Source of the DNA: Sutcliffiella horikoshii DSM 8719
GTDB lineage: Bacteria > Bacillota > Bacilli > Bacillales > Bacillaceae_I
Assembly (NCBI GenBank): GCA_001648575.1
Contig: LQXN01000003.1
Location: 1 to 55,709 of the forward strand
Length of the DNA: 55,709 nt
Reading direction: 5' to 3'
Both the position numbers and the translations under genes were made by a program. Every line of letters begins with the position of its first letter. The first letter of the stretch is position 1. Below are positions 3,036-43,730 of the stretch, piece after piece. The notes below the pieces were generated by a model that saw only the letters and a list, made by a program, of their open reading frames with translations, made no database searches and was not told the DNA's origin.

Positions 3036-3232
3036 GCTGTTGATTGAAGCAAAAGGCGAAGACTCCTGAGGAGGCTCAAGGTCGCCCCGCGGAAAGCGAA
3101 GCCATTTGCGGAAATCAACAGCGGTGTCCTAAACAATATCAAATCAAAGTGGCTTCGAAGCGGAATGGGGAGCTTACGGACCGCTCGCTGGAAAGCGAAA
3201 TTCCTGCAACGGAAATCAACTTGTTCCAACAG
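3036..3232. repeat. REP-like G+C-rich repeat pair
   Basis: GCTGTTGATT (3036-3045) and AATCAACAGC (3113-3122) are perfect inverted ends enclosing a G+C-rich block with CGGAAAGCGAAGCC. A second unit to about 3232 carries GGAAAGCGAAATTCCTGCAA and GGAAATCAAC, then TTCCAACAG. A third, shorter unit lies at 34544-34610. This type of block is widespread between genes in Bacillus-related genomes and is not coding, although it opens frames on both strands. Confidence 0.75.
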
Positions 3233-3506
3233 ATAACCTTACTATTTTATAGTTTGCCAACAGTCAAATGTATGAACCCTATCTCCATCTCAAAAGCTCG
3301 CTTAGCCCCCGGTGATTTCTGCCTCCAGCCACTCTCCCTTTTAGAATAAATCTAAATAAGATATATTCCTTATTTTTATATAAAAACATATTTTCAAAGC
3401 TGAAATGAATGAAAACATGGTTTTAACCGCTCTTTTTGGAAAATTCATATAATTCTAACATATGTTACTATTCACTTAGGGCCTAGTTTATAGGAGAGGA
3501 GGAATA

Positions 3507-3647
3507 ATGATGAAAGAACTTAACTTGAAAGTTGAAGACTTCGAACTAGAGTTAGAAGTGTACGAAGTTTCTTCCGCTACAGTACTTGATACAATGGGAG
3601 CATCTCAAGGATATAACTCTTGCTCTTCCGTTGTAACTCAAGCCTAA
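3507..3647 (+). CDS. Thiazolylpeptide-type RiPP precursor peptide
   Basis: This 46-residue peptide was too short for the usual length cut-off. It has an acidic leader (VEDFELELEVYEVSSATVLD) of the thiopeptide type, then TMGA and the C-terminal SQGYNSCSSVVTQA. In the thiocillin precursor the leader also ends in IMGA before a 14-residue core beginning with Ser, so by analogy the core here is 14 residues starting at Ser33. The core has four Ser, one Thr and a single Cys. AGGAGAGGAGG stands 4-14 bases before the start (second ATG at 3510 also possible). A hairpin separates it from the dehydratase gene. The precursor role is inferred from leader motif plus the downstream LanB, cyclase and YcaO genes. 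Confidence 0.85.
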   Translation: MMKELNLKVEDFELELEVYEVSSATVLDTMGASQGYNSCSSVVTQA

Positions 3648-3674
3648 TTTCGTCTTTATACTTATCTACTGATT

Positions 3675-3710
3675 GCTCAGTTCAACTTTGAACTGAGCTT
3701 TCAACTTTCA
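3675..3710 (+). terminator. Hairpin between precursor and dehydratase genes (attenuator)
   Basis: GCTCAGTTCA (3675-3684) pairs perfectly with TGAACTGAGC (3689-3698) and is followed by TTTCAACTTTC. The broken T-run suggests partial termination, which would give more precursor than enzyme transcript. Confidence 0.65.
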
Positions 3711-3745
3711 TTACAAATTTTCGCTTGAAGGGAAGATCCTGAAAA

Positions 3746-6709
3746 ATGGCAGTAATGGACAACTATTTAGTAAGGACACCAGCACTGAACTTAGACGTGT
3801 TGGAAGCAATATTTAATAATGACAAGGAACTGGAAAAAATTCTTGCAGCTTATTTAAGTCAGGAACACATCAAAGAAAGAATACTTATTGGAAGCGATAG
3901 CCTTTACCAACAATTAGAAGAAGGAAAGCTGACAGCCGGTGCAAGGTTATCACTTGTGAAGTACTTACTACGCATGTCCTCAAGGACCATACCCTTTGGA
4001 TTGTTTTCAGGAATATCCAATAGCAAATTTTCTACAGCAGAAGTTGGGAAACATGCAGCAGATGAAAAGAAAATTAGACTGTCTATAAAATGGTACATAA
4101 AACTAATAGCTATTATAGAAGATTCACAAGGAATAGAATCTCAACTGAAGGTATCGATAAACCCTTTAATAGTAGAAGGCAGTCAGCAATATAACTTGGA
4201 TACAATTCTTCAAAATAATTTTCAACAACTGAAAATTAAAAAAGGTCCTCTAATTAAAGCACTGGTAAACCATTCTACCTCCCCTATAAGAATAGTAGAT
4301 TTAGTAAATCATATTGTTCCAGAAGATATGGAAAAGAAGCATCTGTGTTTAAAAACGATAAAAAACCTATTGAAAAAACAATTTCTTGTCAGTGAACTGC
4401 AGCCTTCTGTTTCTTTCCACAAGGAAGATGATCTATTAGGGAAGCTATTAGAAAGCTCAAGGTTATTGAGTGAAGGGCAATATTCTGTCATTCGCACTAT
4501 CGCCTCCATGATGGAAACGTATAAGGGGCAGAAAGTAGGAGAAGGGATCCCTACCTATTTGGAACTCATCAGAACAATGCAAAGATTAGTAGAAAGTGAT
4601 AAATACCTTGTCATCGATTCTATCTACCATAAGCAAAGGGATGAACAACTAGGATTTGATGTCAAGGAAATCGAGGCGGTGGTAGAAAACCTTGCTCCAT
4701 TGGCACATTTCAGTCAACAGTTCACCGCAAATGCCTGGGAACAATACTACTTGCAGTTTGTAGATCGTTATGGATTTTTTAACGAAGTGGCATTAATGGA
4801 TCTATTAGATAGTGACAAAGGTATCGGCGTGCCTTCCTTTCAAAAGAACACTCAAACCTCTGAGCAGGATGAAGAATTTTTGACATATATGCTGGATAAG
4901 CTTTGGAACAATAGCAATCATGGTTCGAACAAACAAATACTAGAACTACAAGATGAGGACATGAAGGCTATCTCCGCCATTTACAAAAACACCAAGCAAC
5001 ACAAATTAAAAGACGGATACGATATGAAATTTTCCATCTTGGTTGAAAACGGAAAGAAGCTCTTCAATCTAGGTGTAAATTCTTTCGGAAGTACAGCGTC
5101 CTCTTTCTCGGGTAGGCTCGACCTAGAACAGCATCAGGAGGCATCCACCTATTATTCAGATGACCACTATATAAGTTGTGAGTTAAATGGAGTACCGATT
5201 AATTATCCTGATTTAGGCATTTCCTATAAAAAGCCAGACTATGTGATTGACATCACCTGTAATAGTGAGAAGAAAGACAATGTCATTGAACTTGCCGATA
5301 TCTATGTCGGGGCAGATTCGGCTGGATTATACCTAAAAAGTCGAAAATACAATAAACGATTGTTACCAGTCTCGACTCATATGCTTTACTACAATAACTT
5401 TGTGGAACAAAAGCCACTTTTATTCTTATCACTTTTCGGAAAATACATTAGTGAAGTACCGACAAATATCAACTTGGGAAGATTGAAAACGCTTAGTCAT
5501 CTTCCAAGGATTCAGTATAAAAACATCATTCTATCTCCACGTAGGTGGAATATCCCGATGGCTGAACTGAAAGCCGAACCAAGGCAGCGCTTAAAGCAAC
5601 TCGCAGAAGAGCATTGCTTAAATGATCAATATATTTATCTCCTTGATGGTGATAAAACGTTACCGATTTTGTTACATACCACTATAGGTCAGGATTTAGT
5701 CATGGATGCCATCAAAAAGACTAGTAAATATAATAATCATCTAACATTTATCGAAGCATCGGAACTAAATGAAACGATTGAACAGAAGCGGACCTTTGTG
5801 AAAGATTATATTGTCACTGTACCACCAACTGCCAACAACTCAGTTAGGGTTGTCCCGGCAACGGATGTTGGGACACACGCACATCTGATTGAACATGAAT
5901 GGACATACTTTAAAATTTTTTACCATCAAAATCAAAAGCATACGGTTCTAAATTCCTGTTTGGATAGCCTCTATAAAAGCAACTGCCCAGAGGTGTTCTA
6001 TATAAACTATATGGATGTTCCTGGCCAGCCGCATCTTAGGATCAGGTACAAAAAAGAAGAGGGTTCAAAAGAGCATAAATCCCTGGTTGAAACACTAGAA
6101 GCCCTTCGCAAGAATGAACTGGTAAAGGATTATTCCACCCATTTATTTGAACCAGAATATAGCAGATATGGAGGAAGTACCACCTCTAAAGAAGCTTACA
6201 GATACTTTTGCCAAGAAACATTGGTAGGTTTCCAACTGAGCCTCCAGCAAAAGTGGAAGACGATAAAGGAAACAGAAAAAGGCATTATGTTCATGTTGTT
6301 TACATTATTCGATTTTCATGAAAGCTATGAGAGTGCGGCATCCTATCTTGAACAACTGCATGCCCATGTTCAGGCGGCTGCCGATGAAGACTACTTAAAG
6401 AAGTTTAAGTCAAACAGGAATTATTATACTTCACTTGGAAATCAGGCATTGGAATTATACAAGGAACATCAGCATGGGATTTTTAAGGGGAAAAAGGAAG
6501 CAGGAAGACGTTACACGAGCATGGTAACTCAGCAATTTTCAGCAGATAGAAGAGACTACATTTTCAATAGCATCGTCCATATGACTTTGAACAGGGTGAT
6601 CGGTGTCAATAAGCAGCTGGAAGCCGAAGTGAATTGCATGGTCAAGTACATCTTCCACAATATGAAATATAGACTGCAGATTAAAGGAGAATACGATGAA
6701 CTTTTATGA
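3746..6709 (+). CDS. Full-length LanB-type dehydratase (glutamylation plus elimination domains)
   Basis: This 987-residue enzyme should convert Ser/Thr of the precursor to Dha/Dhb using glutamyl-tRNA. The N-terminal glutamylation domain shows YLVRTPAL (about residues 7-14) and RMSSRTIPFGLFSG (about 76-89). The C-terminal elimination domain begins near WTYFKIFYH (about 717) and keeps QPHLRIRY (about 761-768), EPEYSRYGG (about 803-811) and IVHMTLNR (about 942-949). These match the NisB elimination residues Arg784, Arg826 and His961. The length equals class I lanthipeptide LanB, whereas thiopeptide systems usually split the two halves. GAAGGGAAG precedes the start. The end overlaps the next gene by 14 bases. 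Confidence 0.93.
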   Translation: MAVMDNYLVRTPALNLDVLEAIFNNDKELEKILAAYLSQEHIKERILIGSDSLYQQLEEGKLTAGARLSLVKYLLRMSSRTIPFGLFSGISNSKFSTAEVGKHAADEKKIRLSIKWYIKLIAIIEDSQGIESQLKVSINPLIVEGSQQYNLDTILQNNFQQLKIKKGPLIKALVNHSTSPIRIVDLVNHIVPEDMEKKHLCLKTIKNLLKKQFLVSELQPSVSFHKEDDLLGKLLESSRLLSEGQYSVIRTIASMMETYKGQKVGEGIPTYLELIRTMQRLVESDKYLVIDSIYHKQRDEQLGFDVKEIEAVVENLAPLAHFSQQFTANAWEQYYLQFVDRYGFFNEVALMDLLDSDKGIGVPSFQKNTQTSEQDEEFLTYMLDKLWNNSNHGSNKQILELQDEDMKAISAIYKNTKQHKLKDGYDMKFSILVENGKKLFNLGVNSFGSTASSFSGRLDLEQHQEASTYYSDDHYISCELNGVPINYPDLGISYKKPDYVIDITCNSEKKDNVIELADIYVGADSAGLYLKSRKYNKRLLPVSTHMLYYNNFVEQKPLLFLSLFGKYISEVPTNINLGRLKTLSHLPRIQYKNIILSPRRWNIPMAELKAEPRQRLKQLAEEHCLNDQYIYLLDGDKTLPILLHTTIGQDLVMDAIKKTSKYNNHLTFIEASELNETIEQKRTFVKDYIVTVPPTANNSVRVVPATDVGTHAHLIEHEWTYFKIFYHQNQKHTVLNSCLDSLYKSNCPEVFYINYMDVPGQPHLRIRYKKEEGSKEHKSLVETLEALRKNELVKDYSTHLFEPEYSRYGGSTTSKEAYRYFCQETLVGFQLSLQQKWKTIKETEKGIMFMLFTLFDFHESYESAASYLEQLHAHVQAAADEDYLKKFKSNRNYYTSLGNQALELYKEHQHGIFKGKKEAGRRYTSMVTQQFSADRRDYIFNSIVHMTLNRVIGVNKQLEAEVNCMVKYIFHNMKYRLQIKGEYDELL

Positions 6710-7679
6710 AATGAAAATCTACATGAATGATGTGGACAATCATCCAATCTATTCATCTATCCGATCATTGTTGGAGGAAGAATCCGTCCTTTCCCTTAAG
6801 AAAAGCTTCGAAAATGGCTATCATTTAACGGTTTTTGGTTGGCTTACCCAAGATCGAATGAACCAAATATCAACTGAATTCACAAGCTTACTCCTAGCGT
6901 ACCCAACAGAAAAGTATGATGAGACGGCTTTTAGGAATAGCTATAGAAAGGTAGCAGAAATAGCGCTGAAAGAGAATGCACTCACAGAAATCCATCAAAA
7001 TAAGGTTCTCATTTCAAAAAGGCAGGATTTATACGGTTTTCAAAATAAAGAGCAATTGGAGATATATTTAAGAATTAACCAAGTATTTGACAGATGGTTT
7101 ATGCCTAGCTATTGGAAAAGGGATAACAACATCCTTTCTATTACAAAGGAAATGACACCATTTTGCACGAATCTACCAGATGTTGTGCTCTCTAAAGAGC
7201 ATGCACTTTATTCCAATGGGTTTGTTTCCCATCTTTCACACTATCTTGGCCTATTACACTCTTTAAGCGAAAAGAATAAACAGATGATTGTCGAGAGATT
7301 TGAACAAGCAGCTGAGAAAGATAGAGAAACGCTAAAGGAGAGCTTGGAAAAGGATAATGGCTTAACTAAGGATCTGAATGAAATATATCATGAGATAAAG
7401 GATGCTGTTCAACGGGGCGTGCTGAACTTTCATTCTCCACACGATGATGCTCATATTGAAAAGAAGGTGGCAACATCCTCTAAAAGGCATCAGCGTGCAC
7501 TGGCAACTCCTGAATTAAACAAATTGATTTTGAAGGACCCTGTCTTAATCGCGAACCGTTGGATACTAAATGTATTATATGAAAAACTGGTGCTTCTAAA
7601 CATCAAACCACTGGAGAAGTTCTATATGAATTATTTGCTTTGCTCAATGAGGTTTCAGAAGAAGGAGGTATATGCATGA
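6696..7679 (+). CDS. TclM/TbtD-like thiopeptide cyclase (putative [4+2] pyridine synthase)
   Basis: This 327-residue protein resembles the 'thiopeptide-type bacteriocin biosynthesis' family, distant relatives of the LanB elimination domain. The N-terminus (MNFYEMKIYM) and the C-terminal segment ANRWILNVLYEKLVLLNIKP fit that fold, but the RYGG and HM-x-N-R motifs of true elimination domains are absent. A separate elimination enzyme is not needed because the upstream LanB has one. By position and size it is therefore best read as the enzyme that joins two dehydroalanines into a six-membered nitrogen ring and releases the leader. AAAGGAGA precedes the ATG; its last codons overlap the next start (ATGA). 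Catalytic residues were not verified. Confidence 0.75.
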   Translation: MNFYEMKIYMNDVDNHPIYSSIRSLLEEESVLSLKKSFENGYHLTVFGWLTQDRMNQISTEFTSLLLAYPTEKYDETAFRNSYRKVAEIALKENALTEIHQNKVLISKRQDLYGFQNKEQLEIYLRINQVFDRWFMPSYWKRDNNILSITKEMTPFCTNLPDVVLSKEHALYSNGFVSHLSHYLGLLHSLSEKNKQMIVERFEQAAEKDRETLKESLEKDNGLTKDLNEIYHEIKDAVQRGVLNFHSPHDDAHIEKKVATSSKRHQRALATPELNKLILKDPVLIANRWILNVLYEKLVLLNIKPLEKFYMNYLLCSMRFQKKEVYA

Positions 7680-7972
7680 ATATTTTTCTTGATCCGACAA
7701 CGTATATCATCGATACCGAAACTGATTTTTATATTTGTACCAAGGAAAAGAATTTAAAGCTGATGCTGAAGGAACCTTCAAGGAATAGAGTCTATCAAAT
7801 TATTAAAGCATTGAAAGCTGGAGAACCTTTTGCCTCTGCCAACGCATTCGATGAGAAGGTTGTAAAGCTGCTGCTGGATAAAGGGATGGCAACCACCTTA
7901 GAAAAAAGAAGGAGATTTCCTTTGAAGGGATCTCACACATTTCCGGTCCTCCATCGTTTATCGAAGTATTGA
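7676..7972 (+). CDS. RiPP recognition element (RRE) protein, N-terminal part of a split E1-like partner
   Basis: This 98-residue frame begins MNIFLDPTTYIIDTETDFYI (beta strands) and continues with helices ending KVVKLLLDKGMAT. That matches the PqqD-like winged-helix RRE that binds leader peptides. AAGGAGG lies 7 bases before the ATG. After an A6 run (7902-7907) the frame turns basic and loses domain character (EKRRRFPLKGSH...). The -1 frame from the same point reads EISFEGISHISGPPSFIEVL and joins the next ORF without a stop. I therefore think residues 1 to about 77 are the real domain and that the last 20 residues follow a frameshift. A free-standing RRE followed by re-initiation is the alternative. 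Confidence 0.75.
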   Translation: MNIFLDPTTYIIDTETDFYICTKEKNLKLMLKEPSRNRVYQIIKALKAGEPFASANAFDEKVVKLLLDKGMATTLEKRRRFPLKGSHTFPVLHRLSKY

Positions 7973-8736
7973 AAAGAGAGTGTGGCAAACAAGTGGAGCA
8001 TGTGGACGGAAATGCCATTCTTGTACTTGATGATGATGGTGGCAAACATGAACTGCATATTACTTTTTTCAAAAGTGATATGTATATTTCTAATTACGCC
8101 CTAGAATCTAACAAAACAGAGGATTTGAGCGATGATTATTTAGAATATGCTGCCTTTGTCTTCTTAGAGAAATTGCAACAGAAAGCCATTCAACCATCAC
8201 TTCTCACTAGTGGAATAATGGTGATCGATTTATCGATATATGAAAACTCATCAACCATGATTGCGCGGAAACATATCAATTACAAAAACATCAAATCTAG
8301 TTATTTCATGAATGAAAAATTGAACAAGGGCCCTGTATCCTTTGATTTTAAGCAGTATTTCCCTTTTGTTTGTTTGTCCTATCGATCCGAAGGCCTGGAA
8401 GGTGAACTGGTGAGCATCGGTTTTCAGGAGGAAGACGCCATCAACAATTTACTTCAGTTGCTTGCACATCATTTCCAAATGGACTCAACCATCGATCTCG
8501 TCCCTATAGAAAAGATAGAGACCGTAAAAGTAAAGACCCTTCTAAAAAAGCTATGGTTCATTAAGTTTCAGCAAGAACTAGAAATAGAAGAAACAAATGA
8601 TTCAGTGTTCCTTACCATAGGTGAACGATCGTATTCACAACCAAAAGATCCTACCATGAATCCTATTAGCTACTTACTAACCTTGCATCTAAATGGAATC
8701 ACTTCCCCAGAGAGAACAGAGGAATTAGTACGATGA
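7969..8736 (+). CDS. Degenerate ThiF/E1-like TOMM partner protein (body of the split gene)
   Basis: From TTG 7969 the frame encodes 255 residues, but open reading continues upstream to about 7906 (adding EISFEGISHISGPPSFIEV). There is no Shine-Dalgarno before the TTG. The segment ISGPPSFIEVLKRECGKQVEHV resembles the degenerate Rossmann start of ocin_ThiF-like proteins, which carry an N-terminal RRE and present the substrate to YcaO cyclodehydratases. Joined to the previous frame by a -1 shift, the protein would be about 353 residues. TTG overlaps the TGA of the upstream frame, so translational coupling is also possible. Its end overlaps the YcaO start (ATGA). Confidence 0.7.
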   Translation: MKRECGKQVEHVDGNAILVLDDDGGKHELHITFFKSDMYISNYALESNKTEDLSDDYLEYAAFVFLEKLQQKAIQPSLLTSGIMVIDLSIYENSSTMIARKHINYKNIKSSYFMNEKLNKGPVSFDFKQYFPFVCLSYRSEGLEGELVSIGFQEEDAINNLLQLLAHHFQMDSTIDLVPIEKIETVKVKTLLKKLWFIKFQQELEIEETNDSVFLTIGERSYSQPKDPTMNPISYLLTLHLNGITSPERTEELVR

Positions 8737-10304
8737 TGGGTGTAGAAGAGGTCAGGGGTATTTTCACCAAACACTTTTTAACAGGGGAATATGGCAATTA
8801 CCACATCTCTTTTATCACAGATGATAAAAGTATCACCATAGAAAGAAAAAGAAATGTGGAACAGGCATTAAGACACCCCGCCGTTTCAGGAGAAGTGCCC
8901 AAAAGCTCGTACCTATGCCCAGACATCAAAAGTGTGGAGAAAAGTATCTTGTTTTTTAAGATACATGTTCAAAAATACCAAGAAATGAAGTTGGATATCC
9001 CCAAACGGACTATTACTTTCACTTACGGATACGACCAGATAAAACGACCAATCAAGGAATCTGCAAGCAGTAAGCGGCTGCCATCTCACCTTTCCCTTGA
9101 GGATCTGAAAAATGCCTTGTTTCATATTCATGGTGGTTATGTCATTAGAGATACAGGCTCATCCATCGCCGTTGCAAACAGAAAATATTTCACGATACAA
9201 GGGTTTGGCTTTGATTATGATCCATCTACAGCAACAAGAAAAGCATTAATGGAGTACACAGAAAGATATTCAAGTATGGTAGATCTCCGAGATAGTATAA
9301 CGGGTTCTTACCATCAGTTACAGAACAAAGCACCCGTTATCAACCCGGAACAATTCGGTCTTTATACTTCAGAGACACCTAAAGAAAAATATCAATTGGT
9401 AAGCTATCATCACGACCTGGAAATCGACTGGGTGAAAGGAGATTCACTAGTAAATGGTGAGACTTTCTATGTACCGGAACAGATGGTTCAATACTTGAAA
9501 CCAGCAATGAAAAACAGATACACAATTGAAAGCTCCAATGGCTGTGCGATTGGGAATTGTGACGAGGAAGCGGCATTGTTTTCTATCCTGGAAGCATATG
9601 AAAGAGATACCTTTTTCAAGTCATGGTTTCGAAATTCCCAGGTTGTTAGAATAGAAGGTTTAAAAGGCTATGAAAACCAACGATCATTTTTTGAAAATGA
9701 AGGGTATGAATTGGAATTCTATCTGCTTCCTAATAATGCGAAGATACCAGTAGTATGGGCACTGATTCGAAGCGGTGATACTCATAATCAAATTTACTCC
9801 ATCACAGGGCTCGGATGTCATCCGCAGCTGGAGCATGCGATAGAATCAGCCTATTACGAATTGTATAATGCCTATTTAAATTTAACGGGCTTAAAAGAAG
9901 ATTCCTTGAGCACTTTGATCAGTGAAGTGGAAGCAAAGGAGAAATTGGATACCATGGAGGATCATTTTTACCTCTTTGCCTCCTATAAAGTGAGAGGGCT
10001 ATTAGAGAGGAAGCTTAGTGATGTTAGAGAGGAAGCATATGCCGACCTGTTAAGGTTCTCCTATTATACAGAGAATTTACAGGAAGAGCTTGCATATGTT
10101 GTCGAGAAAGTAAAAACAGAATATGAAGACATATTACTCTTTCACCAATCTAATGTACTATTGAATTCCCTTTCATTATCCTGTGCAAAGGTCCTTCTCG
10201 TTGGGGCTATGCCTGTCGACTTCACATCTGAACTTATTAGGAGGACCAATACACTTGATGACGAACGAAGATGGGAAGCACGTAATGTTCACCCATTGGC
10301 ATAA
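8733..10304 (+). CDS. YcaO-domain cyclodehydratase
   Basis: This 523-residue enzyme should use ATP to cyclise Cys (or Ser/Thr) of the precursor to an azoline. YcaO hallmarks are TRKALMEYTERYSS (about residues 166-179) and AIGNCDEEAALFSILEAYERD (about 271-291), which carry the Glu/Asp ATP-Mg ligands. The C-terminus reads EARNVHPLA; it lacks the Pro-rich PxPxP tail of many azoline-forming YcaO proteins, so either the tail is degenerate or this branch does not use it. The ATG overlaps the E1-like stop, indicating coupled translation. With only one Cys in the predicted core, the expected product is a single thiazoline, later a thiazole. Confidence 0.93.
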   Translation: MMGVEEVRGIFTKHFLTGEYGNYHISFITDDKSITIERKRNVEQALRHPAVSGEVPKSSYLCPDIKSVEKSILFFKIHVQKYQEMKLDIPKRTITFTYGYDQIKRPIKESASSKRLPSHLSLEDLKNALFHIHGGYVIRDTGSSIAVANRKYFTIQGFGFDYDPSTATRKALMEYTERYSSMVDLRDSITGSYHQLQNKAPVINPEQFGLYTSETPKEKYQLVSYHHDLEIDWVKGDSLVNGETFYVPEQMVQYLKPAMKNRYTIESSNGCAIGNCDEEAALFSILEAYERDTFFKSWFRNSQVVRIEGLKGYENQRSFFENEGYELEFYLLPNNAKIPVVWALIRSGDTHNQIYSITGLGCHPQLEHAIESAYYELYNAYLNLTGLKEDSLSTLISEVEAKEKLDTMEDHFYLFASYKVRGLLERKLSDVREEAYADLLRFSYYTENLQEELAYVVEKVKTEYEDILLFHQSNVLLNSLSLSCAKVLLVGAMPVDFTSELIRRTNTLDDERRWEARNVHPLA

Positions 10305-10316
10305 GGAGGAGCAGGC

Positions 10317-11378
10317 ATGAATTATACAAGTAATGATTTTTTTCAAGAACTCGCGTTTAATTCCCTTTTTAATGATGGGGAACAGATGTTGGAGCGGCAG
10401 ATGGATGACTACGTCCTTGTGGATGACGATGTGGTCTGTGATGATCCAGTTCATTCGATCATGACAGGACTCAACGACTACAACAGAATAGAGAAAGATA
10501 CTCACTTTAAGGTCCACAAAGGCTATCCATCCCCGCGAAGCTTATATCCAATCCGTTTATTCGTTGTAACGAAAAACGGTTCTTTCTTGACTAAAAACGA
10601 CCAAACTAAGAAATTCGAGCTCTATGAGAATGCTGCACGAGAGGGAGAAGAAGGGGACATTTTGCTCGAATATGGAAAAGTGTATCCTGCATATTATAAG
10701 TCCATCAAAAAAAGCTTGCTATTATTAGAAGCAGGACATTTAATATACAACATTCATCACGTTGCAAAAAGCTGTGAAGCTCGTTACCAAGTTCTTGAAA
10801 AAAACGGATACCTACTATTAAAAAAGGGAAAGAGCCCAAATCAAGATTTCCAGCCGGCTAAACTGGAGAAATTCTATCATTTAAGCTCTATCAGGAATAG
10901 CGGGCCATATTTACATCCAATAACAGCCTACCATCTTATTCCGCTGCTTGATAATGCCTTGGATTTTCAAAAACTTACTGAACAGTTGGTAAGCTTGTTC
11001 ATGCAACCACTAAAGAAGAACGCAATCCGGTTAATCAAACTACAAAATGATGGGGATGGGTTGTTTCACATCCCACATAAAGAACCAAAGGTGGACTATA
11101 AAAAGTTAAACAGCATTTATCCCTATATAAATTTTAAAGGCGTATCAGGTATGTATGTTTTCACCCTGGACAATCTGGTCTTTAGTGAGGAGGAGAATAT
11201 TACGCCATACATTTTGGCGATTGGATTTCTCGCACAATTTTATTGCATGTTGTATGCGTCCGAACAAAATTATTGCAGGCCAGTAAAGAGTTATAATATA
11301 GGGGATTTCGAGCATTTATTAGGTATAAATGGAAGTCATACGACCATCATGTACAGTTTAATCATCGGGGGTAAATAG
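10317..11378 (+). CDS. SagB-type FMN oxidoreductase (azoline dehydrogenase)
   Basis: This 353-residue protein has the divergent nitroreductase pattern of SagB-like enzymes. PSPRSLYPIRLFVV (about 71-84) is the FMN-binding Ser-Arg segment. EAGHLIYNIHHVAKS (about 138-152) matches the conserved E-x-G-H helix, and the C-terminal EHLLGINGSHTTIMYSLIIG is the last strand pair. Its role is expected to be oxidation of the thiazoline made by the YcaO enzyme to thiazole. AAGGAGGAG precedes the ATG, 12 bases after the YcaO stop. Sequence identity to known SagB proteins is probably low, so cofactor use is inferred. Confidence 0.8.
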   Translation: MNYTSNDFFQELAFNSLFNDGEQMLERQMDDYVLVDDDVVCDDPVHSIMTGLNDYNRIEKDTHFKVHKGYPSPRSLYPIRLFVVTKNGSFLTKNDQTKKFELYENAAREGEEGDILLEYGKVYPAYYKSIKKSLLLLEAGHLIYNIHHVAKSCEARYQVLEKNGYLLLKKGKSPNQDFQPAKLEKFYHLSSIRNSGPYLHPITAYHLIPLLDNALDFQKLTEQLVSLFMQPLKKNAIRLIKLQNDGDGLFHIPHKEPKVDYKKLNSIYPYINFKGVSGMYVFTLDNLVFSEEENITPYILAIGFLAQFYCMLYASEQNYCRPVKSYNIGDFEHLLGINGSHTTIMYSLIIGGK

Positions 11379-11395
11379 GAACTGGGGGAAAAACA

Positions 11396-12775
11396 ATGGA
11401 TACTAAATGGAGAACATTATTTAAATTTTCTCTCCCTGTAACATTAATCGGGATAGCGGATTTACTATTAATCTTAATAGACCTCCTATGGATCAGGGTT
11501 TTCATTGGGGATACCGACGCACTGTCGGCACTTCGTCTATCCACCACCATCATCACATTTATTGAAATGGTGCTGATTGCGGTCATTTCAGCTTTATTAA
11601 TTTTCATAAGCCAAAACTTTAGTGCCGGTAAAACAGACCAAGCAAAAGAAGGAATCAAAAATGCCTTTTCCTTTTCCATTTATAGTGGTGTCGTTGTCAT
11701 GCTGCTAGGATTTTGCATTCTTCCATTCATCAAATACATTTTTGGTGTGAACGACTCCGTAAACGGATATCTGAATAACTATCTACTAGTATATTTTGCC
11801 GGCTATGTATTCTTTTCTTTAAATAACTTTCTCATGCTTCTTCCAAGATATTTTCAAAAGCTGAAAATAATCTATATGAGCTTACTTTTTGCTATTCTGA
11901 TAAATATAATTATCACTCCATTAGCAATGCTGCTATTCGATTATTACAATATGTCGATGATGAGTGGGGCGGCAGCTGGTACCGTGTTGGCGAATGTGAT
12001 AAGTACACTTTATCTGCTAATGAGAATTTTCAACCAAGATTTTCTGAAAATTGGCCTGTCCAAAGCCATGATGTCATTCAAACCAACATTTCAAATCATC
12101 AAAGAGAACAAAAAATTTGTTAGCTCCCAGATCTTCAACGGCATCACCTTCAATTTGTCTATGTTCTTCTATATTATCATTCTTTCCTATTATCCAGATG
12201 AAGCATTTAACGTATATGCCGTTGGGATGTACGCCTTTATGGTATTCGGGGTATTTGCCCAAAACTTTGCAGCCAGCTTGATCCCGATTGTCTCCGGTTA
12301 CATGGGGAAAGAAGATATAAAATCCATTAAAGAAACAGTCAGGAAAGTATTTATCGTGCTGGGAGGCTATGGTATCTTTGTTGTCAGTGTCATCCTATTA
12401 TCTAATGACTTACTTGCATCAGCGCTCTCCTCAGATGCAGAGATGATAGCAAGATTTAAGGAATTCTACCTGCTATATAGCATTCCATGGGCCTTGAATA
12501 CGATTTCTTTCATCTTTATTTTTGTTGTGGCCGGCTCCGGAGACTATAAAGGTGGAATGTACCTGACCATAACCAATATGTATGTCATCGTCCTTGGTAG
12601 TTTACTGATTATCCCTAATCTATTTTCGGATAAGGTTTCAGGGGTAATCATTGCTCTATCCCTGATTAATATCATGACGTTTATCAATTCTTTGACCTAT
12701 TACCTATTAGGGAAATGGCAAAGCGCTTCCCTCGTTAAAAAAGCAAAGGCAACCAAAGAGCTTTCTGCTTCCTGA
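11396..12775 (+). CDS. MATE-family exporter
   Basis: This 459-residue protein has about 12 hydrophobic segments arranged as two MatE halves. The first half starts FSLPVTLIGIADLLLILIDLLWI and the second at about residue 240 with NGITFNLSMFFYIIILSYYP. It is the last gene of the RiPP operon, 17 bases after the SagB-like gene, with a GGGGG-type ribosome site. Export of the mature peptide, and with it self-protection, is the natural role, since no ABC exporter is in the cluster. Chloride- or proton-coupled drug export in general cannot be excluded. A bidirectional terminator follows. Confidence 0.88.
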   Translation: MDTKWRTLFKFSLPVTLIGIADLLLILIDLLWIRVFIGDTDALSALRLSTTIITFIEMVLIAVISALLIFISQNFSAGKTDQAKEGIKNAFSFSIYSGVVVMLLGFCILPFIKYIFGVNDSVNGYLNNYLLVYFAGYVFFSLNNFLMLLPRYFQKLKIIYMSLLFAILINIIITPLAMLLFDYYNMSMMSGAAAGTVLANVISTLYLLMRIFNQDFLKIGLSKAMMSFKPTFQIIKENKKFVSSQIFNGITFNLSMFFYIIILSYYPDEAFNVYAVGMYAFMVFGVFAQNFAASLIPIVSGYMGKEDIKSIKETVRKVFIVLGGYGIFVVSVILLSNDLLASALSSDAEMIARFKEFYLLYSIPWALNTISFIFIFVVAGSGDYKGGMYLTITNMYVIVLGSLLIIPNLFSDKVSGVIIALSLINIMTFINSLTYYLLGKWQSASLVKKAKATKELSAS

Positions 12776-12798
12776 TACCGTAGAGAGTATACAAGCGA

Positions 12799-12835
12799 TA
12801 AGCTTCAAGACCCAATTGTGGTCTTGAAGCTTACA
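12799..12835. terminator. Bidirectional terminator
   Basis: TAAGCTTCAAGACC and GGTCTTGAAGCTTA form a 14-bp perfect stem around CAATTGT, between the convergent MATE and PlcR-like genes. Confidence 0.85.
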
Positions 12836-12838
12836 TTT

Positions 12839-13738
12839 CTATACAGGGGATAATTTCAATTCTGCAACTTGTTTTTCTATATTTCCAATAAATTCCAAGC
12901 ACTTTTGGTTATTCGTCATTTGGAAAACAAACTTAGCATTATCCAAATAAACCTGAATGTTGCTAGACTCATAGTCTTTCAGTTTAAGCATGCTTTGTGA
13001 AGCTTGAATATAAAGGTTTCCTAGCATCGATATGTCCTCTAGTTCCTGGGATAGCTTTATACCCCTTTCCGCAACCTCAATCGATTGTTCATACAAATTT
13101 TCATAGAAATATAATTTAGAGAGATTAAAGTATACTTTTAGTTTAAACCGTCGATATGCTTCCAGTTTAATATTTACATTCAATATATCAGTATAGTGCT
13201 TCAAAGCTTCCTTATAATCGCCATTTTCAGCATAGACATTTGCTATGACATTTTTGATTCTTAAGTTTTGAAAATGCACTTTGTTCCTCTCTTTACTCAA
13301 CAACAAAAGCTTCAGCTGTTCCACGCATTCTTCCCAAGAAATCAAGCCAATTAATTGTGCTGATCTAAAAAAATGCCAATCTATAAATTGATTGAACATC
13401 CTGCCAAGATCTCTTGCTTTACTTAACTTCCTCTCAAGCTTGGTTATCTCGTGAACCTCATGATATTTTTTTGATTTTACATACTCTTCTATACTGATGA
13501 TTGTATCCGAAATATATGTTTGATTATTTTGATAATTATTCTGAAAAAAATAATCAATGGTAACGTTCAACCGCAAGGCGATAAAGTACAGTATATCAAT
13601 GCTGGGTAATGCCCGCCCTTTTTCAATACTACTAATAGTTGTCTGGCAGCAAATTCCGTCGGATAATTCTTTTTGAGACAAAAGCTGTTGTTTTCTCAAT
13701 CTCTTAATTTCTTCTCCAAGTAGTTTACTGTCCATCAT
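12839..13738 (-). CDS. PlcR-like RNPP-family regulator (HTH plus TPR)
   Basis: This 299-residue cytoplasmic regulator has an XRE helix-turn-helix at about residues 6-62 (LGEEIKRLRKQQLLSQKELS, then TTISSIEKGRALPSIDILYFIA). A long helical region of TPR-like repeats follows (for example NVYAENGDYKEALKHYTDIL, LYFYENLYEQSIEVAERGI). Order, length and wording closely resemble PlcR of the Bacillus cereus group, which is activated by a re-imported PapR peptide. GGAGGGG lies 5 bases before the first ATG at 13738; the next ATG at 13735 is equally possible. The small secreted peptide at 13908 is divergent and is the obvious ligand candidate. It lies next to the RiPP operon and may control it. Confidence 0.85.
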   Translation of the reverse strand: MMDSKLLGEEIKRLRKQQLLSQKELSDGICCQTTISSIEKGRALPSIDILYFIALRLNVTIDYFFQNNYQNNQTYISDTIISIEEYVKSKKYHEVHEITKLERKLSKARDLGRMFNQFIDWHFFRSAQLIGLISWEECVEQLKLLLLSKERNKVHFQNLRIKNVIANVYAENGDYKEALKHYTDILNVNIKLEAYRRFKLKVYFNLSKLYFYENLYEQSIEVAERGIKLSQELEDISMLGNLYIQASQSMLKLKDYESSNIQVYLDNAKFVFQMTNNQKCLEFIGNIEKQVAELKLSPV

Positions 13739-13798
13739 CTTGTCCCCTCCCAAAAATAAGACAAATATCATATATTAAACACAATTTATTACAAGTTA

Positions 13799-13816
13799 GA
13801 GTAAAATACAATACTC
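13799..13816. promoter_or_regulatory. Palindrome between regulator and signal-peptide genes
   Basis: GAGTAAAATACAATACTC has inverted ends GAGTA and TACTC. It lies 61 bases upstream of the PlcR-like start and 91 bases upstream of the peptide gene. A related GAGTATTTTCTCAATAC occurs at 15931-15947, before the small gene at 15999. It differs from the PlcR box of B. cereus; operator function is a guess. Confidence 0.35.
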
Positions 13817-13907
13817 TCTCCGATAATGGACCTATACTACAAAATCATAACTCTTAAAAATATAATATAATTGTACTAGAAATAGATAAAAATTAGGAGG
13901 AATCAAA

Positions 13908-14063
13908 ATGAGAAAATTTTTATACGCATGTTCTGCAATAACAATAATCTGCCTCTCCCTAGGAATCTCTTCCGCATCCATCACAAGTACCGAAATGTTA
14001 ACTTCCCAAGAAACAGTAACCCCAGATTCACGTAATGATCCGACATTGCCATCTGAGGATTGA
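13908..14063 (+). CDS. Putative PapR/Phr-like secreted signalling pro-peptide
   Basis: This 51-residue peptide is preceded by AGGAGG with ideal spacing. It has a short basic start (MRKF), a hydrophobic export segment (YACSAITIICLSLGISSA) and a polar C-terminal tail ending SRNDPTLPSED. Size (PapR has 48 residues), secretion signal and a short Pro-containing acidic C-terminus (compare the PapR end ADLPFEF) fit a quorum-sensing pro-peptide cut to its last 7-8 residues. It lies head-to-head with the PlcR-like gene, whereas papR normally follows plcR. A lipoprotein or other small secreted product remains possible, because a Cys lies within the hydrophobic stretch. Confidence 0.6.
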   Translation: MRKFLYACSAITIICLSLGISSASITSTEMLTSQETVTPDSRNDPTLPSED

Positions 14064-14076
14064 TGAGTTATAGGAT

Positions 14077-14216
14077 GTTCGAGGGTCCCTAGACCCAAGA
14101 AGAAATATATGGTGCCGACTATCAGTTCATAACGTTTATACTGGAAGAGAAAAATAAAGTAATTATTTTCTACTAAAGGAACTTTCTTATGAAGGTTCTT
14201 TATTTATCTTGAGGGA
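14077..14216. repeat. Partial copy of the intergenic element with the GGTCGAGGG end
   Basis: It starts with TTCGAGGGTCCCTAGACCC and continues with AAGAAGAAATATA and, later, TTTTCTACTAAAGGAAC and GAAGGTTCTTTATTT. These words recur in the same order in the elements at 20858-21120 and 23004-23313. The 3' part is missing. Confidence 0.55.
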
Positions 14217-14303
14217 TGTGGGTCGACAATCCAATCCATGAAATTATTGGGGGAGAGATCCAGACGAACTTGCCTATCCATCATGTTGCCACATCTCCTT
14301 TTG

Positions 14304-14338
14304 GCAAAAAAAGCACCTGTTTTCCCAACAGATGCTTC
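14304..14338 (-). terminator. Rho-independent terminator, minus strand
   Basis: Read on the minus strand, AAGCATCTGTT pairs with AACAGGTGCTT (one G-T pair) and is followed by TTTTT. It closes the YcxB-like gene. Confidence 0.85.
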
Positions 14339-14346
14339 CCGATTTA

Positions 14347-15411
14347 TCAGCTTGCTTTATCCATAAATGCTACTTTTTTCGTTTTTGCATTTTCACTGAT
14401 AATGCTTTTAATTTTGGATCGTTCATCGGCATTAAGGTACACTTGCGGAAGTATAATAGCTTTATTTTTTGACACAAAAAATAAAAAAGTTGTCTTCGTT
14501 TCATAGATTGAGAGGATATTATCCCAAGAGTAATGGGAATGGGCGCTTTGTATGGTTTGAGTAACTCCATCCGGGCTTATTTCTAAATGAATGTCGTTAT
14601 GCATTCGCCGGTCACTTCTGTATTCTATGGAAGCCTTCCAATTAATAACGGTTGATAACAAAAACCTGGTAGCTATGCTGACAATTATTGCAAACGCTGT
14701 GATCAGAAAGGTTATTTCCTTGAACAAGAGTAGTGCTAAGAGCATATAAAGCACACCAACCCAAATAGGAAAGAATACCTTCGCTTTTCTTGCGAGGAAG
14801 TGAATATGGTCAATGAACATCTTCTCACTAATGAAAATGGTGAAATTCACACCCCCGGGGTTTTCTGGTTGTATTCTTGCAACCGGCTCAGTGTATTCTA
14901 GGGCAGCACCCTTAGAATTCTCATTTTCCTTGATGAGCTGACGCAAGCGCTGCATCTCACTTTTCAAAAGGAATTTTTGTGGAATGAGAATTGCTTTATT
15001 TTTCGATATGTAAAATAAAAATAGGTTCTTGGTTTCGTGAATGGAGAGAATGCCTTCCCATCTTGTCAGCATTTCTGACCTACCCACTTTTTTATAAATT
15101 CCCTCTGCATTGATAGTGTAGAAAACCTCTTGCTGCATAAGCTGATCACTTCTATATTCTTTGATTCCTTTCTTAGAAGCCATCTTGGGTAACAAAAACC
15201 AAACAATGGTGCCCATAAACAAGCTGGCAACTAGCATGAAAATGATGGATATATCAGGGAGTAATATACGTATTAAGACAGAATATAGTAAAGCAAATGA
15301 AATCACATACCAAATTCTTGTTTTATTCGAGTGAAACACTATATATTCCTTCATTGCTTCTTCACTTATTAATCCACTTACCTTTATTTCGTTATTTTCC
15401 AATAAAGCCAC
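14347..15411 (-). CDS. Tandem YcxB-like membrane protein
   Basis: This 354-residue protein consists of two similar halves, each like a single YcxB-family protein. Each half has two hydrophobic segments (about residues 33-72 and 213-252) and a soluble part. The soluble parts share EYRSDQLMQQE / EYRSDRRMHND, the WEGILSIHETKNLFLFYISKNKAIL / WDNILSIYETKTTFLFFVSKNKAII pattern, and a final charged helix. YcxB-type domains are bacterial membrane proteins of unknown function. The internal duplication is unusual, since most family members have one copy. The start follows AAAGGGGTGGC. It has its own terminator on the minus strand. Confidence 0.8.
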   Translation of the reverse strand: MALLENNEIKVSGLISEEAMKEYIVFHSNKTRIWYVISFALLYSVLIRILLPDISIIFMLVASLFMGTIVWFLLPKMASKKGIKEYRSDQLMQQEVFYTINAEGIYKKVGRSEMLTRWEGILSIHETKNLFLFYISKNKAILIPQKFLLKSEMQRLRQLIKENENSKGAALEYTEPVARIQPENPGGVNFTIFISEKMFIDHIHFLARKAKVFFPIWVGVLYMLLALLLFKEITFLITAFAIIVSIATRFLLSTVINWKASIEYRSDRRMHNDIHLEISPDGVTQTIQSAHSHYSWDNILSIYETKTTFLFFVSKNKAIILPQVYLNADERSKIKSIISENAKTKKVAFMDKAS

Positions 15412-15584
15412 CCCTTTCTTATTAATTATAGCATGGCGAGGGGGGAGAAACAGGGGACGAATCTTTGCTTCTTTTCGTTATCCTTTTCGTTAAGATTGGA
15501 TAAAAAGGAAATGAGGAGGTTGGTTTGTTCAAATACATAACTGCGCATTACTAAGTAATCTCTCATAATTTTCTTCTATAATTA

Positions 15585-15705
15585 TATTTGAACAAACGTT
15601 TGTTCAAATCTATATTTTTCTTTATTATACGGGAGTTGATATGCATTCGAGGTTTCTCTACTATTTTTGCCCGGTATACTAGGAAAGCTTTTGAGGTTGT
15701 GGGAG
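15585..15705. repeat. Copy of the CAAACGTTTG / hairpin repeat (family 2)
   Basis: It begins with the palindrome AACAAACGTTTGTTCAA and continues with GTTGATATGCATTCGAGG and CTACTATTTTTGCCCGGTATACTAGGAAAGC. Copies at 38390-38500 and 39665-39775 have the same order. The rest of 15412-15998 includes a partial GGGTCGAGGGGACA word near 15758 and otherwise A+T-rich DNA without a gene. Confidence 0.55.
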
Positions 15706-39845: not shown

Positions 39846-40634
39846 CTAAGCCCTTACCTCCGCACAATTCTCATACAACTCAACAGCCTCTTTCACCGTG
39901 AATCCTTCCTTCACAATCGCATGGATCGCACGGATCATCGCCGTTGGTTGTGCCGACTGCCAAATATTCCGACCCATATCCACTCCGGCAGCTCCTTGAT
40001 TCATCGCATTATACGTAATCTCCAGCGCCTCTTTAATGGTGTCAAACTTCGGCCCGCCAGCTATCACAATCGGCACCGGACATTTACTTGTTACCTGTTC
40101 AAAATTCTCACAGTAATAGGTCTTCACGATGTCCGCACCCATTTCTGCCGTGACCCTTGAGGCGAGTGCCAAAAATCTAGTATCGCGTTTCTCCAGTTCT
40201 TTTCCGACAGCGGTAATCCCTAGAACTGGCAGGCCATAATCATGCGCTTCACTCACCACATGCGCTAAATTGGTGATGGTTTGTGTTTCATATTTAGATC
40301 CCACGAACACAGAGACACCGACACCCACCACATTATGGCGGACAGCCTCTTTCATCGAGGTCACGATCGTCTCGTTGGAAAGGTCATTCAATACAGTCGG
40401 TCCGCCCGATACCCTCAGCACCATCGGTTTTTCCGTATCCTCCGGGATGCAGGAAGCAAGCGTTCCGCGTGTCAGATACAAGGAATCTGTGTATGGCAGC
40501 AGCTCCTTGACCGTTTCTCCCGGTTTTTCCAACCCTGAAATCGGCCCGAGGAAGTAGCCGTGATCAATGGCAAGCATCACCGCCCGCCCGTTTGGCAGTA
40601 TTTTATTCAATCGATTTTTGAAACCCCATGTCAT
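39846..40634 (-). CDS. lsrF: LsrF: 3-hydroxy-2,4-pentadione-5-phosphate thiolase (AI-2 catabolism)
   Basis: This 262-residue class I aldolase-fold enzyme handles the last step of autoinducer-2 breakdown, passing an acetyl group from the isomerised phospho-AI-2 to CoA. Visible features are VMLAIDHGYFLGPISGLEKP (about 19-38), the strand and lysine region ADIVKTYYCENFEQV (about 167-181), and VIAGGPKFDTIKEALEITY. AAGGAG lies about 9 bases before ATG 40634; upstream ATGs fall on or before that site. It ends the lsrR-lsrK-cupin-lsrF operon. The G+C content is clearly higher than in the genes before 39.6 kb. Confidence 0.92.
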   Translation of the reverse strand: MTWGFKNRLNKILPNGRAVMLAIDHGYFLGPISGLEKPGETVKELLPYTDSLYLTRGTLASCIPEDTEKPMVLRVSGGPTVLNDLSNETIVTSMKEAVRHNVVGVGVSVFVGSKYETQTITNLAHVVSEAHDYGLPVLGITAVGKELEKRDTRFLALASRVTAEMGADIVKTYYCENFEQVTSKCPVPIVIAGGPKFDTIKEALEITYNAMNQGAAGVDMGRNIWQSAQPTAMIRAIHAIVKEGFTVKEAVELYENCAEVRA

Positions 40635-40673
40635 ATTGATCCACTCCTTTTTCATAATAAGAACGTTCAACCT

Positions 40674-41036
40674 TTATGCTTCAGCAATGACCGGTTTATC
40701 AATAACTACCGAGTCATTTTTGCCGATATGTGGTGACTTAATGAAGACAGCTTTGAAACGCATTTCCGATTGATTGATTAAGTAATGGGAATCCCCAGGA
40801 CGGCACTGAATCATATCCCCAGGCTTTGCTTCAATCTTTTCCCCGTTAATAAAGAAGTCAATTTCACCCTCTAAGATATAGAAAATTTCCTCGCACTCTG
40901 TATGGTAGTGGTTCGGAAAGTCTTGGCCCGGTTTCAGAACCACGACCCCGACATCCACATTAGGACCCTTTGTTAAATACTTCGGGCCATTGTCCCCAAA
41001 GCGGTATTCAAAATCACTCTCATTGACTTTCTTCAT
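40674..41036 (-). CDS. Small cupin in the lsr operon, possible LsrG replacement
   Basis: This 120-residue single-domain cupin shows the first motif as NHYHTECEEIFYILEGE (about 47-63, ligands His, His, Glu). The second motif is CRPGDSHYLINQS (about 82-94, final His). AAAGGAGG precedes ATG 41036. In enterobacterial lsr operons the gene beside lsrF is lsrG, an ABM-fold enzyme that isomerises phospho-AI-2. No lsrG is present here, and this cupin occupies its place, so a metal-dependent isomerase doing the same job is a reasonable guess. A regulatory or storage role cannot be excluded. Confidence 0.8.
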   Translation of the reverse strand: MKKVNESDFEYRFGDNGPKYLTKGPNVDVGVVVLKPGQDFPNHYHTECEEIFYILEGEIDFFINGEKIEAKPGDMIQCRPGDSHYLINQSEMRFKAVFIKSPHIGKNDSVVIDKPVIAEA

Positions 41037-41060
41037 TCCTTCACCTCCTTTCAAAGTCAT

Positions 41061-43564: not shown

Positions 43565-43730
43565 CTGCTGTACACTCCTCAACAAATGTGCGCAAGCAAG
43601 ATTTATGTTCGCGCTTTATCCAAAATATATCCCCGCCCTTTTAAGAAAAGAACGAAAAGGAAAAATTAATTTGTTGTTGTCATATTCGCTTTCCTTACTG
43701 TGTAAATAAATAACAGGCATGGATTGATTT

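Follow-up and report, generated by a model that had tools for sequence, protein, structure and literature searches.

The operon described here, from Sutcliffiella horikoshii DSM 8719, probably makes a small thiopeptide whose only obligatory thiazole is at Cys7 and whose 20-membered ring is closed by a pyridine formed from Ser1 and Ser8 of the core. It lies in a stretch of 55,709 nucleotides, referred to below as the window. As a gene family, the operon is well supported as a variant of the thiopeptide/pyritide kind, and the product is a prediction from its genes and relatives.

Results

A thiopeptide-type operon with a one-cysteine precursor

The precursor gene heads the operon, upstream of the LanB, cyclase, partner, YcaO, SagB-like and MATE genes (Table 1), and its position and sequence agree with the initial annotation. 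The precursor matched two leader models significantly, in each case just under the cut-off: Pfam Thiopep_pre (E 1.3e-4, 22.1 bits against a curated 23.5) and NCBIfam thiazolyl_B, NF033400 (E 4.2e-6, 26.6 bits against 30). The thiazolylpeptide leader HMM was matched at E <=0.1 by eight of nine related precursors, and one of the nine also touched the lanthipeptide model NF038155 (E 0.019). An MGA/S leader junction is a feature of thiocillin. Codon changes among three Sutcliffiella-type precursors (synonymous versus other: 6 vs 7, 16 vs 15 and 16 vs 10) showed no selection signal, the counts being too few and too even. The stem-loop that follows the precursor gene has 92.3% of its 78 cells paired across six clusters, against 26-39% when slid, and two of its pairs carry changes on both sides, a number also reached in 94 of 500 shuffles. 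It is probably an attenuating terminator that holds the precursor mRNA in excess.

Table 1. Positions and supporting matches of the operon and its neighbours in the window
Feature	Position	Strand	Basis
Precursor peptide, 46 aa	3507..3647	+	32-residue leader ending TMGA, 14-residue core SQGYNSCSSVVTQA; NF033400, Thiopep_pre
Stem-loop between precursor and LanB genes	3671..3702	+	Present in 6/6 clusters of the window gene order
Full-length LanB dehydratase, 987 aa (glutamylation and elimination domains in one protein)	3746..6709	+	Lant_dehydr_N E 7e-80, Lant_dehydr_C E 1e-26
Pyridine synthase ([4+2] macrocyclase), 327 aa	6696..7679	+	NF045556 E 2.4e-7
Partner protein at the place of the leader-binding cyclodehydratase partner	7676..8736	+	Frame broken in window copy: 7676-7972 and 7969-8736
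YcaO cyclodehydratase, SagD family, 523 aa	8733..10304	+	PF02624 E 4e-54; TIGR03604 E 2e-53
SagB-like azoline dehydrogenase, 353 aa	10317..11378	+	TIGR03605 E 0.0037; hhalign to L013 SagB E 9.5e-19
MATE exporter, 459 aa	11396..12775	+	MatE E 5e-24
RNPP-family regulator, HTH and TPR C-terminal domain	12839..13771	-	RNPP_C E 6e-33, HTH_3 E 8e-13
Pheromone-precursor-like peptide, 51 aa, ending NDPTLPSED	13908..14063	+	Divergent from regulator; predicted secreted, N-terminal hydrophobic stretch by eye

Most of the enzyme assignments in the initial annotation were upheld. LanB carries both its N- and C-terminal domains, matches NisB in the PDB (E 1e-34) and shares the RxR, R(Y/F)GG and HM motifs with all 11 LanBs compared (PFGLF is kept in six of the 11), so that the LanB-type Ser/Thr dehydration of thiopeptides is represented by gene content. 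The YcaO protein belongs to the SagD family, with a TIGR03604 score of 181.8 bits against a cut-off of 219; its ExxER and LExxERD motifs are invariant in all eight members, and its five PDB matches include MusD, TruD and LynD. The SagB-like call is weak from the protein's own TIGR03605 match and firm through a relative, the L013 SagB, which itself matches that model at E 5.3e-12; a PDB profile search with the SagB-like protein gave no match. By homology, the operon thus has both the azole-forming YcaO and the dehydrogenase of thiopeptides. The MATE call likewise stands, with homologues 87% (L009), 73% (L003), 55% (L012), 51% (L036) and 49% (L019) identical.

The protein annotated as a TclM-like cyclase matches NF045556 (TbtD_PbtD) at 30.3 bits, far under the equivalog cut-off of 325, and profile-profile alignment (hhalign) links its family to six cyclases at E 1e-12 over 286 columns, all six of which match NF045556. 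Seven of the eight members of its own alignment matched the same model at E <=0.1. A pyridine synthase of the TbtD/PbtD/TclM kind is therefore present, though under the equivalog cut-off. The S-H, H and N-x-x-Y positions are common to the window family and classical cyclases, while the PDB profile match to TbtD (5wa3) reached only E 0.016 and the structure model was poor (pLDDT 42). Alignment to three cyclases from pyritide-like clusters (L020, L021 and L022) gave E 4.5e-42, and in the tree, drawn with L042 left out, seven classical-type Bacilli cyclases stand apart from the window cyclase group (alignment A12 omits both L040 and L042). Profiles and tree thus place the cyclase nearer the azole-less pyritide-like Bacillales clusters than the classical thiopeptide cyclases.

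Relatives of the operon

Five further genomes (L003, L009, L012, L019 and L036) have the window gene order, each time behind a homologous precursor gene, and the pairing of operon and precursor is beyond chance. Each of the six cores follows the pattern S-x-G-x-N-S-C-S and contains one Cys, and G3 and N5 are fixed in this set, whose rings are predicted to be 20-membered. The initial annotation had proposed a one-Cys core in a thiopeptide-type pathway, and both the gene set and these aligned cores bear it out; no Cys-rich precursor, which alongside these enzymes would have argued against it, was seen when looked for in the six clusters. Sutcliffiella rhizosphaerae CIP 111883 has an intact cluster with the core SVGTNSCSVVVTQQ. 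As the clusters were mostly found with the cyclase as query, the presence of a cyclase in each is not independent evidence.

More distant kin have the cores SSAPVFSCSSIFKI (L037), SRGGNGCCSVIIAT (L070) and SIGKLGCCSSIIIR (L013), and cyclases 22-31% identical to that of the window. Beyond these, nine distant class matches were obtained, of which eight were compared (G547 was left out). Five of the eight (L038, L039, L041, L042 and L045) yielded a readable precursor, Cys-rich in each case and accompanied by a split LanB; none was recognised in L040, L043 or L044. The distant match in G088 has four stops.

Wider searches returned few carriers. A phylum-wide draw of 398 genomes returned only the own genome; in the families of G435 (1/3) and G282 (1/19) nothing came up beyond the carriers already known, and the family of G739 had two carriers among 295. 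Plasmid records held no match to the window cyclase, the precursor, or the L037 and L022 cyclases; the L013 cyclase had one match, on a Streptomyces plasmid, at 20% identity, annotated as thiopeptide maturation pyridine synthase. Viral contigs gave 60 pattern matches, none of them encoding a relative.

Predicted size and register of the ring

The register of the ring is suggested by L070. Its core has only two Ser, Ser1 and Ser9, the second directly after Cys, and because of this a pyridine in L070 must use the Ser that follows Cys. L013 and L037 fit the same register, and its transfer to the window by homology, from clusters whose cyclases are distant, would place the ring between Ser1 and Ser8 with Cys7 as a thiazole. 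This supports the earlier proposal of a ring of about 20 members in which the second ring Ser adjoins the Cys7 azole. In classical thiopeptides, too, an azole precedes the second ring Ser. The ring size follows from the rule 3(n-1)-1, which for n = 8 gives 20 members; the same rule gives 14 for pyritide A1, 17 for pyritide A2 and 26 for thiocillin (n = 10), in agreement with their known sizes.

The residues after the proposed ring Ser are SVV in the window, VVV in L003 and L009, VIV in L012 and SVI in L019, and among the distant kin SIF in L037, VII in L070, and SII and SIE in L013. Ser1 and a second Ser with hydrophobic C-terminal residues are thus a pattern of five of the six cores. The exception is L036, with QVN in place of the hydrophobic tripeptide. 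Across the five modifying and partner proteins of L036, identity to the window is 31-40%; its ring, SQGYNSCS, is identical while its tail is different and longer, suggesting that the unit under selection ends at Ser8. In pyritide A1 the ring Ser is followed by WVI, and its enzymes need that C-terminal tripeptide (PMC9247985).

The reading of Cys7 as the sole azole goes too far: Ser6 may be an oxazole or a Dha, an option that the initial annotation did not raise. With the Ser1-Ser8 ring retained, an oxazole at Ser6 would give an oxazole-thiazole-pyridine with one azole from Cys. This is a sub-variant of our preferred structure, with overlapping odds, to which we give a little under an even chance. 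In the seven one-Cys clusters a Ser stands just ahead of the ring Cys, whereas a second Cys holds that place in both two-Cys clusters of the same register (L013 and L070); this suggests the oxazole, and an oxazole also precedes the ring Dha of lactazole (PMC7210931). However, a Dha at Ser6 fits as well, and in lactazole a Dha is implied at Ser10, two residues ahead of the ring Dha (PMC7210931).

A smaller ring between Ser1 and Ser6 seems unlikely. It would be 14-membered like that of pyritide A1, with the Cys7 thiazole exocyclic, at the opposite face of the pyridine, and Ser8 either unchanged or converted to Dha. Known thiopeptides frequently carry an azole just past their second ring Ser, and Ser6 is conserved equally with Ser8 in the six clusters; moreover, the ring of pyritide A1 is closed at Ser6 with no azole ahead of it (PMC9247985). 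Against this, the matching position is Cys in both L070 and L013, L070 has Ser only at positions 1 and 9, and the hydrophobic tripeptide comes after Ser8 rather than Ser6. The match of Ser6 to Cys in L013 holds only if the cores are anchored at their ring Ser, as a gapless alignment would set Gly6 of L013 against Ser6 of the window.

The partner protein and other possible products

The partner gene is spread over two frames in the window contig, which could mean that the pathway is dead or phase-variable. We consider this improbable, as another contig of this assembly, C34, matches the window along its full length of 12,380 bases with one 1-base gap and no mismatch and carries the gene as one open frame. 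C34 appears to be a duplicate contig and the gap a sequencing or assembly difference, and the gene is also unbroken in the seven relatives compared (L003, L009, L012, L019, L036, L037 and L070). The description of its product as RRE/E1-like found no sequence support: NCBIfam and Pfam scans of eight members gave only single-member, unrelated matches, the PDB profile search was empty, and hhalign gave no link to the L013 ThiF-like protein. A structure model of the L003 homologue was poor (pLDDT 44).

The YcaO, SagB-like and LanB proteins alone would be expected to give a linear or otherwise uncyclised peptide with azole and Dha residues, of the goadsporin or dehydrazole type; with a pyridine synthase homologue in the operon that keeps the S-H, H and N-x-x-Y positions of classical cyclases, such an outcome is very improbable. 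A class I lanthipeptide in which Cys7 forms a thioether is scarcely credible: LanB and one Cys are present, but no LanC-like gene was found in the genome (no PF05147 match, against 1/14 in control genomes; the initial annotation had noted its absence from the operon) and the operon includes a dedicated cyclase and azole enzymes.

Proposed pathway and regulation

From the genes and their families, the conserved core and the relatives, we infer the chemical steps, ring size, export and regulation as follows. The YcaO and partner proteins would turn Cys7, and perhaps Ser6 too, into azolines, which the SagB-like enzyme would oxidise. LanB would convert Ser1 and Ser8 to Dha by glutamylation and elimination of glutamate. 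The pyridine synthase would link Dha1 to Dha8 through a formal [4+2] reaction, expelling the leader as a carboxamide, so that the pyridine would be bonded directly to the Cys7 thiazole in the 20-membered ring and the tail past residue 8 (SVVTQA) would lie outside it. No leader peptidase would be needed, and none was found among the recognised genes of the operon. The MATE protein would export the product.

Expression is probably timed by the RNPP regulator and its own pheromone. By gene content, the HTH-TPR protein and the adjoining, putatively secreted small peptide form an RNPP-type pair, and the former is probably a quorum-sensing regulator. Regulator homologues lie beside the clusters of L009 (82% identity), L003 (69%) and L012 (51%), with a weak one (29%) in L019 and none recognised at the L036 cluster. 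The 51-aa peptide had no Pfam match; its homologues in L003, L009 and L012 share the ending [DV]PT[LI]PSED. A quick look for a shared operator upstream of the precursor and pheromone genes recognised none. The recognised genes of the operon include none for ribosomal immunity, so the target of the product may not be the ribosome.

Discussion

The suggestion of a new chemistry class was overstated, and the operon is better seen as a variant on a pyritide-thiopeptide continuum. We tentatively propose, at somewhat less than even confidence, a pheromone-timed mini-thiopeptide family in Bacillota, with 20- to 23-membered rings, one or two pyridine-touching azoles (oxazole-thiazole or thiazole-thiazole), other ring residues unmodified, and an ancestry shared with azole-less pyritide-like peptides. 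If true, such a family would show how pyritides and thiopeptides interconvert, an evolutionary step that would become testable with the aligned clusters. A 20-membered ring that is conserved in nature and has one thiazole, derived from Cys, would bridge the gap between 14/17 (pyritides) and 26-35 (thiopeptides), and would offer engineering a compact pathway that leaves ring residues unmodified.

Classical thiopeptides such as thiocillin/micrococcin share LanB, YcaO, dehydrogenase and pyridine synthase with the window. They differ in forming several azoles from Cys-rich cores, where all six cores here have one Cys, and often in a split LanB. According to a 2020 paper, the rings of all thiopeptides then known have 26-35 atoms, thiocillin having 26 (PMC7210931), against the 20 predicted here. 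Lactazole (Streptomyces lactacystinaeus), a thiopeptide from a minimal cluster which shows that azole number differs between family members, resembles the window in its low Cys/Ser/Thr content, unmodified position 2 and small enzyme set, but has a 32-membered ring and a minimal scaffold that needs two azoles and three Dha (PMC7210931).

The lactazole core sequence appears unlike the window-family cores. The pyritides of Micromonospora rosaria (MroA/MroB/MroC/MroD; A1 and A2) share with the window a leader, a [4+2] cyclase and, on the proposed pathway, non-azole ring residues and the conversion of Ser1 and a second Ser to Dha; a hydrophobic C-terminal stretch follows their ring Ser, as in five of the six cores here. 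Their cluster is without Cys and azole enzymes and has a split LanB, and their rings of 14 and 17 contain no azole (PMC9247985). The window, in contrast, has one core Cys, YcaO and SagB-like genes, a fused LanB and a predicted ring of 20. A fused LanB and a near cyclase are also found in the pyritide-like Bacillales clusters L020, L021 and L022, in whose 20-kb stretches no YcaO or SagB-like homologue was seen; these differ in having four or five tandem precursors and Cys-free cores (SIYASVIIRPELAN, SYVGSVIIVTK and SWVGSVITIDR) with predicted 11-membered rings.

Distribution and make-up of the clusters

A rare, conserved family of thiopeptide-like clusters with a one-cysteine core exists; the chemistry predicted for its product is the part that is likely. 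The one-cysteine thiopeptide-type operon claimed in the initial annotation was borne out by the precursor reading frame and by family matches for the enzymes that follow, and most of the interpretation given with it also holds. The leader has eight acidic and two basic residues, and the precursor matches Thiopep_pre in Pfam at E 1.3e-4 and thiazolyl_B in NCBIfam at E 4.2e-6, each slightly short of the curated cut-off. After it come genes for a fused LanB, a TbtD/PbtD-type pyridine synthase (the cyclase), a protein at the usual place of the leader-binding cyclodehydratase partner, a SagD-family YcaO, a SagB-like protein and a MATE exporter.

Features and their coordinates
Feature	Location	Strand	Details
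Precursor	3507-3647		MMKELNLKVEDFELELEVYEVSSATVLDTMGASQGYNSCSSVVTQA; ORF translation
Hairpin	3671-3702		3' of the precursor; 6/6 clusters
Partner gene	7676-8736
RNPP-family regulator	12839-13771	-	divergent from the 51-aa peptide
51-aa peptide	13908-14063	+	hydrophobic N terminus, ending NDPTLPSED
High-G+C block	39846-49886		G+C about 0.45-0.50; flanks 0.37-0.40
Precursor pair	L019:6544-6995		tandem
Four precursors	L013:18087-18782		near end of split-LanB thiopeptide operon
Pyritide-like clusters	L020:9549-14277, L021:6193-10941, L022:5765-10876		fused LanB + cyclase
Cys-rich thiopeptide precursors	L041:5837-6377, L042:13712-14253, L045:5340-6142		tandem; cores e.g. SSGSSSSSGCSTCGSSSCCGSC

The gene order is common to six genomes (the window and the stretches L003, L009, L012, L019 and L036 from related genomes). 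Related clusters were located via the cyclase, so its presence in them is built in, which does not apply to their other genes and cores. Aligning the cores of precursors beside the same gene set, as the initial annotation had proposed, gave one-Cys cores in all six, with S1, G3, N5, S6, C7 and S8 invariant. In L019 the two precursors are identical in leader and core. Two genomes of a different family, f72 (L037, L070), carry the same modifying genes but an ABC exporter, and L013 has a split LanB and a ThiF-like protein; one of its four precursors differs in its core (SIFIIACCSSIEIKPY).

Cores, tripeptides after the proposed second ring serine and predicted ring sizes
Cluster	Core	Tripeptide	Ring size
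Window	SQGYNSCSSVVTQA	SVV	20
L009	SQGHNSCSVVVTQK	VVV
L003	SVGTNSCSVVVTQQ	VVV
L012	SIGKNSCSVIVQQ	VIV
L019	SNGHNSCSSVIQEK (two copies)	SVI
L036	SQGYNSCSQVNPSLPEIGFGN	QVN
L037	SSAPVFSCSSIFKI	SIF	23
L070	SRGGNGCCSVIIAT	VII	23
L013	SIGKLGCCSSIIIR (x3), SIFIIACCSSIEIKPY (x1)	SII, SIE	23

The cyclase was matched, own genome counted, in 3/16 genomes of the genus, 5/18 of the family, 10/397 of the order and 12/398 of the class, in overlapping draws; the phylum draw returned the own genome only (1/398), and the family of genome G739 gave 2/295. The precursor profile matched 8 of 397 genomes in the order draw, every one a cyclase carrier. As so few genomes match in either search, the family is rare and patchy. 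Among the distant cyclase matches of the class search, L038, L039, L041, L042 and L045 have Cys-rich cores, split LanBs and distant cyclases; no precursor was recognised in the L040, L043 and L044 clusters.

Enzyme assignments

The window cyclase matches NF045556 at E 2.4e-7, well under the equivalog cut-off; seven of eight aligned family members match this model (E up to 0.1), as do all six thiopeptide-type comparison cyclases (best E 1.7e-82). Aligned against those six, the six one-Cys cyclases gave E 1e-12 over 286 columns. The only PDB profile matches up to E 1 were TbtD (E 0.016) and PbtD (E 0.8).

All eight YcaO sequences compared keep the ExxER and LExxERD motifs unchanged, and five PDB matches include MusD, TruD and LynD. 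All 11 LanB sequences have the RxR pair, R(Y/F)GG and the late His-Met; PFGLF is present in the six of common gene order and absent from the other five. The roles of these residues are known from work on NisB. The SagB-like protein alone gave a weak family match (E 0.0037) and no match in a PDB profile search; it aligns with the L013 dehydrogenase (E 9.5e-19), which matches TIGR03605 (E 5.3e-12). Family scans, a PDB profile search and comparison with the L013 ThiF-like protein assigned no family to the partner protein, whose structure model was too poor in quality for use.

The partner gene is spread across two frames in the window, which is contig C12 of an assembly of 4.68 Mb in 67 contigs. 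Contig C34 (12,380 bases; L004), a duplicate of the operon differing by one base in length, aligns with window positions 3229-15607 with no mismatches and one 1-base gap, which falls inside the partner gene; the C34 frame is open. The gene is also intact in all seven relatives compared (L003, L009, L012, L019, L036, L037, L070). The likeliest explanation is a duplicate contig that differs through sequencing or assembly; phase variation at a single-base run is possible.

Proposed ring closure

The serines of the L070 core lie at positions 1 and 9 only, with a terminal Thr, and any pyridine there must therefore use Ser9, immediately after CysCys. This spacing is kept in L013 and L037. The core in the window has one residue fewer, which puts the proposed second ring serine at 8, following Cys7. 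The formula 3(n-1)-1, where n is the position of the second ring serine, reproduces the published 14 and 17 members of pyritides A1 and A2. The register favours Ser8, for which the formula gives a 20-membered ring, as first proposed; Cys7 need not be the only azole. When cores are anchored at the second ring serine, the one-Cys cores have Ser at position n-2 where the two-Cys cores have Cys, a pattern that speaks against Ser6 as a ring serine and argues for an azole there. This anchoring is our choice, since MAFFT sets L013 without a shift, its Gly6 opposite Ser6. It is possible that Ser6 becomes Dha instead of the favoured azole. L036 is the exception among the tripeptides behind the ring serine; in pyritide A1, according to PMC9247985, MroB and MroD require WVI there.

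Regulation and neighbouring genes

The hairpin passed a slide control clearly (92.3% paired, against at most 38.5%). Shuffling gave a modest result, the covariation score being reached in 28/500 shuffles and the number of pairs with a double change in 94/500, because there are only six sequences and 7/13 pairs are invariant. The regulator and peptide look like a PapR/Phr-type pair. The pair recurs adjoining the clusters in L003, L009 and L012, where the peptide homologues end in VPTLPSED, DPTLPSED and DPTIPSED, respectively.

Elsewhere in the window, the high-G+C block encodes an FGGY kinase, a sugar-binding regulator, an ABC ATPase, two permeases, a binding protein, a DeoC-type aldolase and PfkB. 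It looks like an acquired autoinducer-2 uptake operon of the lsr type.

Comparison with pyritides

In a 19-row cyclase tree, the one-Cys, L037/L070, L013 and pyritide-like (L020-L022) sequences separate from seven classical-type cyclases with support 96/97. The one-Cys and pyritide-like rows together form a nine-row group with support of only 86/80, and long branches were flagged, L013 included, so the branching order within the group is unsure. Profile comparison agrees with the tree on the nearness of the groups, placing the one-Cys cyclases closest to the pyritide-like (E 4.5e-42), then to L037/L070 (E 1.5e-22) and the classical type (E 1e-12).

No YcaO homologue was seen in the L020-L022 cluster stretches, which hold four or five Cys-free precursors in tandem, with cores SIYASVIIRPELAN and SYVGSVIIVTK. 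These cores would give 11-membered rings, a size that MroD is reported not to achieve (PMC9247985).

A literature search of titles and abstract openings found no such one-Cys cluster described; a listing in the large 2018 thiopeptide survey is possible. A thiazole-bearing pyritide has been made in the laboratory by joining two pathways (PMC9247985), and in the one-Cys clusters nature appears to have done something like it.
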